From NCBI GenBank assembly GCA_026418625.1, contig JAOABA010000037.1, positions 1 to 59,736 of the forward strand: 59,736 bases of DNA, in the 5' to 3' direction. Below are positions 8,647-11,394 of the stretch, in pieces (positions within the stretch are counted from its first letter, which is position 1; each line of letters starts with the position of its first letter). Both the position numbers and the translations under genes were made by a program. The notes below the pieces were generated by a model that had not been told where the DNA came from, searched no databases, and saw nothing but the letters and a program-made list of their open reading frames with translations. Source of the DNA: Candidatus Kapaibacterium sp. GTDB taxonomy: Bacteria; Bacteroidota; Ignavibacteria; Kapaibacteriales; UBA2268.

Positions 8647-8721
8647 TACATAAAACAAAACTGATAAGATTTTTTGCTTGGAAGATTTTTTTTAAGCTTC
8701 CTAAATATTAAATTTGCATTT

Positions 8722-8750
8722 GGAATACCATCAAGTTGGAATTCCTTTTT
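8722..8750 (+). terminator. Rho-independent terminator of the NIF3/zinc-ribbon operon
   Basis: GGAAT (8722-8726) pairs with ATTCC (8741-8745), then an A/A mismatch, then CCA (8728-8730) pairs with TGG (8737-8739) around a 6-base loop. T5 and a further T-rich run follow directly. Placement 76 bases after the zinc-ribbon stop fits termination of that operon. Confidence 0.55.
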
Positions 8751-8811
8751 GTTTTATTATCGGAGAAAAAAATTAATGGATCCCGACTCAGTTCGGAAAA
8801 TTTTATTCAAA

Positions 8812-8884
8812 ATAAATATCACGCTGGGAATCTAATCAATAATTTTTCCCTCCGTGATATTTATCTTCCAATTGGAGGGAAAAA
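8812..8884 (+). promoter_or_regulatory. Structured mRNA leader with alternative pairings covering the RBS
   Basis: Structure 1: ATAAATATCACG (8812-8823) pairs perfectly with CGTGATATTTAT (8853-8864). Inside it, GGGAA (8826-8830) pairs with TTCCC (8846-8850). This leaves the ribosome binding site free. Structure 2: TTTTTCCCTCC (8843-8853) pairs perfectly with GGAGGGAAAAA (8874-8884), which contains the Shine-Dalgarno sequence and the A of the start codon. The two share 8846-8853 and cannot form together. That is the layout of a translational switch or attenuator. A small CCGA/TCGG hairpin (8783-8796) lies upstream. I do not recognise an M-box or yybP-ykoY consensus. Function is inferred. Confidence 0.6.
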
Positions 8885-10134
8885 TGTCAACAATCAAAAC
8901 TTTTTATCTTAGTAGAGTTCTTGGAAGCAAAATATATTCCTATGAACTTGATGTCATTGGAAGGCTACAAGATATAATAGTTGATATTAGCTACGAAAGA
9001 CCAAAAATTGTAGCCTTAAAATTAAAAACAAAAACTGGTTATGAAGAATATGACTCTGGTCCTTTCGACTTGATTAAACGTCGAGGTAAGTATTATTTGG
9101 TTTGTAAAGAGCTTAAACCTATTAATTTAAGTAAAATCAATTATGTTTATCTCGCTAAACAAATTCTTGACAGGCAAATAGTTGATGTTAACGGCAGGAA
9201 AGTCGTTCGCGTTAACGATTTAAGATTTGCTATGATACCCTCCGGAACTTTTCTTGTGGCTGTTGATGTTGGATTGGAAGGATTGCTAAGAAGATTAGGT
9301 CTGGCAAAGCCATTAAAATTTATTCTTAAACCCTTTGGGCTGACTATTCCTTCAAAATTTATGCCTTGGGATGAAGTTGAACATATCAATTTGCCAAATC
9401 TTTCCATAAAGATTTCATCTCCATATTCAAAACTTCTAACTCTTCACCCTTCGGACATAGCAGATATTATAGAAGATTTGGACCGCAATTCTCAGATTGA
9501 TTTTATCAATACCATTGACGAAGAAAAAGCGGCTGACGTATTCGAAGAACTCGAGCAAGATGTTCAAATTTCATTGCTTGAAAATCTGCCGGTTCAAAAG
9601 GCGGCAGATGTTCTTGAAAAAATGCCAGCTGACGAAGCAGCCGACATTCTTGACGATTTGGACAAGGAAAAAGCAGAAGAATTATTAAACGAAATGGAAA
9701 AGGAAGCCTCAGATGAAGTTCGTGAACTTATGGAATATCCTGATAATACTGTTGGCAGCCTTATGACTACTGATTTTATTGCTTTTAAAAAAGAGTTTAC
9801 AGTTCAACAAACAATTGATGAATTACGTAAGATTAAACCTGAATCAGACACCATTTATTATCTCTATGTTCTCGATGACGATGAAAAACTTCTTGGAACT
9901 GTCTCATTAAGAGATTTAATAGTTTCGGATCCTGATATCAAACTGATGGATATAATGAATCAAAGAGTAATTAAAATGCAGGATTACGATAAAATTGACG
10001 ATCTTGCTGAAATCATCTCTAAATATAACCTTCTGGCTATTCCGGTGGTTGATAATTACTCCAAACTTCTTGGAATGATCTTGATTGATGATGTTGTTTT
10101 TACATTACTAAAGAGCAGAAAAAGGAAATTATAG
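8884..10134 (+). CDS. PRC-barrel / MgtE-N / CBS-domain protein, soluble regulator of metal transport
   Basis: The 416-residue soluble protein starts at ATG 8884, 5 bases after a strong GGAGG; an in-frame GTG at 8854 is less likely. It has N-terminal PRC-barrel-like segments (about 1-165), an acidic MgtE N-domain with superhelical repeats such as LHPSDIADIIEDLD (about 185-285), and two CBS motifs (about 300-416). There is no transmembrane domain, so it is MgtE's cytosolic Mg2+-sensing half without the channel. In MgtE this module opens or closes the pore with Mg2+. The NRAMP-family gene 18 bases downstream supplies the membrane part, suggesting that it gates that transporter (inference). Confidence 0.85.
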   Translation: MSTIKTFYLSRVLGSKIYSYELDVIGRLQDIIVDISYERPKIVALKLKTKTGYEEYDSGPFDLIKRRGKYYLVCKELKPINLSKINYVYLAKQILDRQIVDVNGRKVVRVNDLRFAMIPSGTFLVAVDVGLEGLLRRLGLAKPLKFILKPFGLTIPSKFMPWDEVEHINLPNLSIKISSPYSKLLTLHPSDIADIIEDLDRNSQIDFINTIDEEKAADVFEELEQDVQISLLENLPVQKAADVLEKMPADEAADILDDLDKEKAEELLNEMEKEASDEVRELMEYPDNTVGSLMTTDFIAFKKEFTVQQTIDELRKIKPESDTIYYLYVLDDDEKLLGTVSLRDLIVSDPDIKLMDIMNQRVIKMQDYDKIDDLAEIISKYNLLAIPVVDNYSKLLGMILIDDVVFTLLKSRKRKL

Positions 10135-10152: not shown

Positions 10153-11394
10153 ATGAGTAAACAAAAGACTAATTTTTGGAGGAAAATATTAATATTTCTT
10201 GCTGTTTTAGGTCCGGGAATCATAACAGGTAGCGTTGATAACGATGCAGGCGGTATTACAACTTACTCTCTTGCAGGAGCAATGTATGGTTATAAACTAA
10301 TTTGGACACTAATTCCGGCTTTTATCGCCCTTGTTGTCATTCAAGAAATGAATGCCCGAATGGGGATAGTAACAGGAAAAGGTCTTGCCGATTTGATTAG
10401 AGAAAACGCTGGCGTTAAAACTACATTTCTAATCTTTATTGGGGTTCTAATAGCTAATATAGGAAATACAGCAACAGAGTTTGCAGGAATCGCTGGAAGT
10501 CTTGAAGTTTTTGGAGTGAGCAAATATATATCAGTTCCTATCTCAGCGGTTATAGTATGGTTCATAGTTGTTCGTGGAACGTATAAGTCTGTCGAGAAAA
10601 TTTTCCTTATTTTTAGCCTTTTTCTTTTTGTTTACGTTATTTCTGCCTTACTTGGAAAGCCACAGTGGGGAGAAATCGGGGAGTCAATAATCAAACCTCA
10701 CATAGAATTTGAATTTAACTATGTTACAATGGTCATAGGTCTTGTTGGAACAACAATTTGTCCTTGGATGATGTTTTACCTTCAATCCTCAGTTATCGAA
10801 AAAGGATTAAAACCAGATAATTATAAATATTCGCTTTGGGACGTTGTTATTGGCAGTATTATCACCGTAGTTATAGCTTTTTTCATTATTGTAGCTTGTG
10901 CTGCCACACTTCACATCAATGGTATCGAAATCACTGAAGCAAAGGACGCTGCTCTTGCACTTGAACCACTTGCGGGTTCTTTTGCTGCTTTGCTCTTTGC
11001 ATTTGGGTTATTCATTGCCTCTATTTTTTCTGCTTGTATTCTACCCATAGCAACAGCATTTAGCGTTTGCGAAGCTTTTGGATTTGAAGCAGGAGTAGAT
11101 AAATCTCTGAAAGAAGCTCCTGAGTATTATACAATTTTTACAGCAATTCTTTTAATTGGAATGGCTATTATTTTAATACCCGATGCTCCTCTTATTCAAA
11201 TAACTTTGTGGGCTCAGGTAGCTAATGGTATTCTGCTGCCTATTATACTATTCTATATTATGAGAATGATAAACAATAAGGAAATTATGGGAGATTTTAC
11301 AAATAAGGCTTTTCATAATGTAGTTGGGTGGTCAACAGCGTTAGTTCTAATAGTTCTCTCGGTCGTTTTGGTTGTTTTGCCAATTATTGAATAG
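10153..11394 (+). CDS. Divergent NRAMP-family divalent metal transporter
   Basis: The 413-residue integral membrane protein has about 11 hydrophobic segments. The TM1 motif GPGIITGSVDNDAGG places D31-A-G-G34 where NRAMP transporters have DPGN. The TM6 segment GTTICPWMMFYLQS has Cys203-Pro-Trp where Mn/Fe transporters have Met-Pro-His. Two canonical metal ligands (the Asn of DPGN and the Met of TM6) are therefore replaced. A non-canonical metal such as Mg2+ is suggested by the upstream MgtE-N/CBS partner but is not shown. The genes share an operon with an 18-base gap, and the structured leader upstream probably controls both. Confidence 0.85.
   Translation: MSKQKTNFWRKILIFLAVLGPGIITGSVDNDAGGITTYSLAGAMYGYKLIWTLIPAFIALVVIQEMNARMGIVTGKGLADLIRENAGVKTTFLIFIGVLIANIGNTATEFAGIAGSLEVFGVSKYISVPISAVIVWFIVVRGTYKSVEKIFLIFSLFLFVYVISALLGKPQWGEIGESIIKPHIEFEFNYVTMVIGLVGTTICPWMMFYLQSSVIEKGLKPDNYKYSLWDVVIGSIITVVIAFFIIVACAATLHINGIEITEAKDAALALEPLAGSFAALLFAFGLFIASIFSACILPIATAFSVCEAFGFEAGVDKSLKEAPEYYTIFTAILLIGMAIILIPDAPLIQITLWAQVANGILLPIILFYIMRMINNKEIMGDFTNKAFHNVVGWSTALVLIVLSVVLVVLPIIE

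Follow-up and report, generated by a model that had tools for sequence, protein, structure and literature searches.

The operon that begins at position 8884 of the contig JAOABA010000037.1 from Candidatus Kapaibacterium sp. (the window, 59,736 nucleotides, in which all the features described here lie on the forward strand) raises the question of how a leader RNA with two competing folds is switched, and by which signal. The operon codes for a 416-residue protein with PRC-barrel, MgtE_N and CBS domains (8884-10134; Pfam PF05239, PF03448 and PF00571) and for an NRAMP-family transporter of the NRMT, or Mg2+, type (10153-11394; PF01566 and a site motif DxxG...TxxC). A Mg2+-sensor-like module with a transporter had been suggested for this locus in the preliminary description, and Pfam gives MgtE_N and NRAMP. 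The start of the first gene is ATG 8884, preceded by the Shine-Dalgarno (SD) sequence GGAGGG. The in-frame GTG 8854, an option in the list of open reading frames, was rejected, because in L032, the closest relative (homologous loci are referred to by such numbers), it does not lie in the frame of the gene.

Stem A pairs 8812-8823 with 8853-8864 at 12 of 12 positions and has an inner helix of 8826-8830 with 8846-8850; the folding energy of the stretch 8812-8864 is -20.2 kcal/mol. Stem B pairs 8843-8853, an anti-Shine-Dalgarno strand, with 8874-8884 at 11 of 11 positions, is extended by an A-U pair (8842-8885) and a G-U pair (8854-8873), and masks GGAGGG together with the A of ATG 8884 (-17.4 kcal/mol for 8840-8890). 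Bases within 8846-8853 are common to both stems, which are therefore mutually exclusive. A perfect 12-bp stem with an inner 5-bp stem, an 11-bp alternative over GGAGG and the first base of ATG, and exclusivity through the overlap 8846-8853 had all been described earlier, and each of them is borne out. It was found that none of 200 dinucleotide shuffles contained an equally good exclusive pair (p=0.005, the floor), the lower stem score being 29.7 in the window against a mean of 12.3 in the shuffles. The exclusive stems are real and beyond chance. The fold of 8761-8900 as a whole gave a z of -2.84, with 2 of 200 shuffles as good. There is also a third fold, in which the SD of an upstream ORF (8761-8765) pairs with 8850-8854 on the C-rich strand that stem B also uses; in free 8761-8900 it is marginally the minimum-energy structure (-31.7 kcal/mol against -31.1 with stem A). 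Even when stem A forms, the SD stays covered by a weak local hairpin (8865-8869 with 8874-8878; -4.3 kcal/mol alone), and in our judgement this ON fold should still permit translation. No U run is present 3' of stem B in the window; the architecture hides the ribosome binding site (RBS) instead.

Stem arms such as these are also inverted repeats in DNA, so they might be a DNA operator or merely fortuitous. This reading is contradicted by the shuffles above and by a swapped-arm test among homologues, and we regard it as extremely improbable. When near-copies were dropped, 14 of the 21 leaders of the close group, one per cluster, were left for the swapped-arm test and for the opening-cost shuffles given below. 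In none of 20,000 permutations was the mean pairing energy as low as with the cognate arms, for either stem (stem A, -22.9 against -15.3 kcal/mol when permuted; stem B, -19.2 against -13.9 kcal/mol). The five Kapabacteria leaders alone gave 1 of 120 arrangements for stem A and 2 of 120 for stem B, the identity arrangement included, and the nine Firmicutes leaders alone gave 0 and 2 of 20,000. Own partners fitted no better than those of others in L005 and, for stem B, in L088 and L127. The exclusive pair reached p<=0.05 in 18 of the 21 close-group leaders (200 shuffles each; L005, L127 and L128 missed), and both stems of L121-L123 are perfect or nearly so over 14-15 positions. Only 1 of the 23 other leaders tested showed this layout at p<=0.05, a figure that is low in part because uORFs there reach the gene, a case that the search rules exclude; L101 and L041, matches to a loose motif, were excluded from the stem tests. 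Stem sequences differ between genera, and pairing with the own partner is kept. The check proposed earlier, whether homologues conserve the stems or show covariation in them, has come out positive, with the stems retained in other sequences in other Kapabacteria and in Firmicutes. The output of the L088 leader looks like a transcription terminator, because a T run comes after its stem B, which stands apart from the SD of the gene; to judge by the sequences of L087, L089 and L091, stem B there could be a terminator and hide the SD as well.

What lies upstream of the stems was earlier described as a short upstream region (8761-8811) with one 4-bp hairpin. This was incomplete, as the region consists of an SD and the first part of an unannotated upstream ORF (uORF). 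The uORF runs from ATG 8776 to the stop TAA at 8833-8835, codes for MDPDSVRKILFKINITLGI and has the SD CGGAG (8761-8765) ten bases 5' of its ATG. Its second half contains the 5' arm of stem A: 8812-8823 correspond to codons 13-16, and the whole 5' side including the inner 8826-8830 corresponds to codons 13-19. The 3' side of stem A, in turn, has bases in common with the anti-SD strand of stem B. From the uORF stop to the ATG of the gene there are 48 nt. Codons 1-4, M-D-P-D, are presumed to be the ribosome-destabilising part. Further upstream, TAAATTTG (8709-8716) fits TAnnTTTG, which we take to be the Bacteroidota-type -7 promoter box, and it is the probable promoter of the leader, as judged by comparison with shuffled sequence. 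All five distinct Kapabacteria leaders have such a box within 75 nt 5' of the uORF; shuffled sequences gave 0.82 on average, and none of 2000 shuffles reached this number. Between this box and the uORF a terminator-like hairpin with a T-rich run was seen by eye (8722-8755), similar in L032, which may be the end of the transcript of the upstream gene or a 5' hairpin of the leader. A scan of the own genome for ATGGAYNNNGAYCC, a pattern that does not fit the leader of the window itself, gave six places, each inside a longer open frame that extends 29-500 codons upstream, and hence no second leader was found by it.

Close homologues of the MgtE_N protein are present in 7 of the 54 genomes of the family to which the window belongs. 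A uORF starting M/V-D-x-D precedes the operon in six of these seven, L004 being the one without. The starts read MDPDSVRK in the window, MDPDSVRY in L032, MDDDPGGL in L006, MDEDPGGL in L005, MDPDTGDS in L007 and VDPDGSSS in L008; this last leader may be an assembly artefact, as it stands at a contig end with the gene in two pieces on opposite strands. L032 has the same uORF SD and the same first seven codons as the window and has diverged in the remainder; despite this drift, stem A is kept there with 8 pairs in its outer and 6 in its inner part, and stem B with 12 positions. No clear uORF SD is present in the four distinct Kapabacteria leaders outside the genus of the window, and the window peptide itself is without proline at position 5. 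Such a uORF was absent from twelve operon loci in three other families of the class, and among 23 loci of MgtE-like genes of the same family (L009-L031), searched on both strands, three motif-like short ORFs were found (L011, L017 and L030). Three MgtE_N homologues, L073, L074 and L077, have one in-frame stop each (TAA, TAG and TAG); the upstream stretch of L077 is missing.

Leaders of this kind are also found in Firmicutes, a label that for part of the loci rests on a class, order or phylum shared with Firmicutes genomes. Of the 21 Firmicutes loci at 48% protein identity or more, 15 have such a leader (L117 recognised by eye, the other 14 by script); L033, L034, L086, L090, L131 and L132 have the operon with no leader. 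Most start with M-D/E-x-D/G-P, and most of the uORF ATGs are preceded by an SD-like sequence. The starts are MDTDPDGR (L087, L089, L129), MEADPYST (L088), MDADPSGK (L091, same as L038), MDSGPVSK/R (L121-L123), MDGNPAGR (L124), MDPVPRAG (L125), MDSGPY (L126-L128), MDGDPAIM (L116, same as L036), MAGDPASY (L117), and MEGDPANK and MDGDPANK (L133 and L134). Starts of the MDSGPYHS type are seen in a more distant group within the class of G635. Among 38 leaders at 48% identity or more, 14 carry the strict motif [MVL][DE]x[DG]P (shuffle mean 0.06); the counts are 20 of 30 at 33-48% (0.09) and none of 25 at 25-33% (0.11), and for a looser motif 20 of 38, 22 of 30 and 1 of 25 (shuffle means 1.39, 1.55 and 1.16). 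These shuffle figures overstate independence, because the leaders are relatives of one another and the same set had served to define the motif. Across codons 2-8, 18 of 24 differences fall at third positions in twelve related and partly overlapping pairs. In these sequences the motif and the third-position bias are the pattern expected of a translated and selected peptide start.

The position of the uORF over the stems suggests how the two folds could be chosen. In the 21 close-group leaders the 5' arm of stem A starts at least 34 bases after the first base of the uORF, where a ribosome paused at codons 4-5 is not expected to extend to it but one that continues would cover it. For the window, opening the gene start is predicted to cost 17.3 kcal/mol when a ribosome stands at the end of the uORF, and 6.0 kcal/mol when it stands at codon 5. 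The cost was higher with the ribosome at the uORF end in all 21 leaders (mean +9.9), with a gain of only 0.9 kcal/mol or less in L126-L128. Among the 14 distinct leaders the mean gain was +9.6 against -0.4 in shuffles, and it exceeded all 60 shuffles in 12 of them, the exceptions being L088 and L126, which were matched or surpassed by 4 and 29 of their 60 shuffles. The probability of an unpaired SD, which had been computed first, moved in the right direction in 15 of 23 leaders; this measure was blunt, its ribosome footprint extended over part of the 5' strand of stem B, and in the window it hardly moves (0.13 against 0.07) because the SD keeps its weak local hairpin. Opening energy with a shorter footprint was adopted after that result, and both measures are given here.

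The leader is probably a Mg2+ switch of the MgtL/MgtQ type, acting by translation abortion (intrinsic ribosome destabilisation, IRD). Ribosomes would start on the uORF at 8776. With enough Mg2+ they would be stable and translate it to the end, covering 8812-8830 and blocking stem A; the C-rich 8843-8853 would then pair with the SD and start of the operon in stem B, and the importer would be off. In low Mg2+, the acidic and proline-containing M-D-P-D would destabilise the ribosomes, which would drop off or hang near codons 4-5, leaving 8812-8830 free; stem A would form, remove the anti-SD strand and turn the importer on. As in leaders of the MgtL (IRD) type, a short ORF with its own initiation site stands ahead of an importer, here NRMT-type and by inference for Mg2+; early acidic and proline codons appear to be under protein-level selection, less clearly so for the MDSGP leaders with one acidic residue; and, in computation, translation of the uORF chooses between exclusive folds. 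The sequences and the modelled folds bear out the uORF with its start conserved as protein, the two exclusive and covarying stems, and the geometry. We infer that translation chooses between the stems in the cell, with Mg2+ setting the rate of drop-off and low Mg2+ as the on state. Many Firmicutes leaders begin MDSGP with a single acidic residue, and so classical IRD may not cover the whole family.

The same switch would result whenever a ribosome stalls or is lost short of codon 13, whatever the cause. The same geometry could thus serve an attenuator that senses, for example, the charging of proline or aspartate tRNA, or the status of EF-P or EttA, at codons 3-5 in place of Mg2+-dependent ribosome stability. 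Proline codons of mgtL do matter for the control of mgtA (PMC11552253), and EF-P affects mgtA (PMC6460261). On the other hand, residue 2 is acidic in 41 of 44 listed leaders and residue 5 is proline in 38 of 44, counts that are biased, since a motif of this kind had served to select most of the leaders (seven, L005-L008 and L117-L119, were chosen by eye, having been missed by the SD rule or the motif of the script). A single proline codon is, in our judgement, a poor sensor of charging, and the transporter is of the Mg2+ type with relatives often under M-box control. We consider this attenuator unlikely, although it is the most serious of the alternatives. It is far less probable that the uORF acts by an arrest peptide or by plain translational coupling, with a stall or handover at its end and an incidental acidic start. 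Some distant leaders do end a few bases from the gene start, but in the window the uORF ends well short of the ATG, the off fold is the one favoured when a ribosome stands at the end of the uORF, and the start of the peptide is the shared part, later residues differing widely between genera.

The preliminary description considered a new metal-responsive leader or a protein-dependent switch possible; in a riboswitch of the former kind the RNA itself would bind Mg2+ or Mn2+ and pick the stem. In the light of the folding, the shuffles and Pfam, that description was right about a two-state leader on an operon for metal transport, with the ribosome site concealed in the off state, and the leader is most likely metal-responsive. 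The evidence favours a translated leader peptide over a ligand-binding RNA, since what is conserved is the beginning of a short ORF, and Rfam offers no known aptamer. At the gathering score, a search of the window with Rfam 15 gave a single match, a tRNA, and neither yybP-ykoY nor any other riboswitch; no consensus of a known metal leader had been recognised before either. Two exclusive stems on a metal-transport operon are what a riboswitch would have, and Mg2+ stabilises RNA helices in general. Between genera, however, unrelated sequences keep the pairing and the ORF start is conserved as protein, and a non-exhaustive look revealed no other shared element, so that a metal-binding riboswitch appears improbable. 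The covariance model of the M-box (RF00380) had no match in the window or, with strict filters, in the 54 family genomes; the same search gave matches in two of the 14 genomes used as controls, one of them B. subtilis. Upstream of homologous operons it was found in 23 of 34 distinct Firmicutes loci scanned. The scan took in 25 of the 38 leader-bearing Firmicutes loci, and in 20 of these 25 an M-box lies upstream of the uORF. In L087-L089, L091, L116, L121-L129 and L133 the order is M-box, then an acidic or M-D-x-x-P uORF, then, in most, exclusive stems. M-box and leader peptide are apparently two Mg2+ elements in one leader.

The closest precedents are enterobacterial. The mgtL leader of mgtA in E. 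coli and Salmonella is likewise a short ORF in front of a Mg2+ importer with exclusive leader folds, and has acidic residues 2 and 4 around proline (E-P-D-P, compared with D-P-D in the window and D-x-D-P in several relatives). In E. coli MgtL, Glu2 and Asp4 of EPDP cause ribosome loss linked to low Mg2+ (PMC11282234; PMC11552253). It differs in phylum, gene (MgtA as against NRMT with MgtE_N) and RNA, and its output is Rho termination whereas that of the window is apparently RBS sequestration. The mgtQ leader of Salmonella mgtCB resembles the window in its uORF with acidic residues near the start over exclusive stems, one of which hides the next RBS, and in its translation-level output; its Asp2 and Glu5 work via exclusive stems over the mgtB RBS (PMC8092293), a report whose passages on mgtQ do not demonstrate ribosome loss itself. 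Unlike the window leader, mgtQ is intergenic, has 8 codons and uses four strands, with a ribosome on strand 1 freeing the RBS; in the window there are three strands, and a ribosome on the 5' strand of stem A closes it. The M-box (ykoK) stands upstream of homologous operons and has the same expected direction, on in low Mg2+, but it was not found in the window or its family, and in Firmicutes the leader peptide is a second element downstream of it. In mycobacteria a small conserved ORF, rv1805A, also stands between an M-box and genes (PMC12810186); it is reported as mycobacteria-specific, is itself the regulated gene, has a role described there as unknown and belongs to a PE/PPE context, and the main text of that paper contains neither 'destabilization' nor 'MgtL'. 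Among the matches listed in the open PMC literature were MgtL, mgtQ, corL and the mycobacterial M-box/uORF, and no such leaders before NRMT operons.

The operon encodes an importer of the NRMT type, probably for Mg2+, and an MgtE_N-like partner. The binding site of NRMT, the SLC11 Mg2+ transporter, is DxxG-TxxA/T (PMC8806188); the window transporter has DxxG, but TxxC in place of TxxA/T. TxxC was seen in the genus of the window (window and L032), the other NRMT rows with a readable site having TxxA or TxxT. The TM6 motif of the window reads GTTICPW, and its cysteine, a soft ligand, could alter the choice of metal. NrmT rescues the growth of a B. subtilis mutant without known Mg2+ transporters, and Shin et al. 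found NrmT genes behind M-boxes and remarked on the MgtE-N neighbour (PMC4072509). In the same paper the transporter of A. capsulatum, with an MgtE-like neighbour and no M-box, was judged mainly a Mn2+ carrier. This protein is a relative of the operons studied here, and with the unusual cysteine in the window site it means that the metal could be other than Mg2+.

A quick protein tree of 62 rows places the copies from Kapabacteria in one group with copies from Firmicutes, with many branches unresolved and a long-branch warning, and the presence of the leader needs 13 changes on it. Transfer of the operon between phyla is likely from these sequences; BLAST of the operon against plasmids gave no match. 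It is about an even chance that a widespread M-D/E-x-D/G-P nascent-peptide Mg2+ sensor controls NRMT importers in at least several Firmicutes classes and in Kapabacteria, carried on a mobile operon, often stacked behind an M-box and on its own where there is none. If so, the stacked leaders would read free Mg2+ twice, by RNA and by ribosome stability, and a peptide sensor would share leaders with the best-known Mg2+ riboswitch. In the parts of the literature surveyed, gauging Mg2+ by ribosome instability on acidic nascent chains belongs to a few enterobacterial leaders; the strategy would then be in use in distant phyla, with a compact and searchable motif. The window leader unites known parts (acidic leader peptide, exclusive stems, putative Mg2+ importer) in another phylum, and a testable account would be obtained of the possible control of NRMT/MgtE_N operons in bacteria where the M-box is not found.

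Other arrangements were seen among the relatives. The related operons L118 and L119 have leader peptides of the form MQDDGGPG..YIPPH.., with an acidic start of other sequence and a hairpin within the uORF. Many uORF starts of distant leaders can pair downstream, and hence their DNA may be kept partly for pairing. In five leaders with distant MDSGP starts (L094, L096, L103, L106 and L110), a GCCAGACTCC-like element directly 5' of the SD of the gene is a possible pairing partner of the start of the uORF, ATGGATTCTGGCCC, with a matching T->C / A->G change in L094; this is a different switch geometry with a similar peptide.
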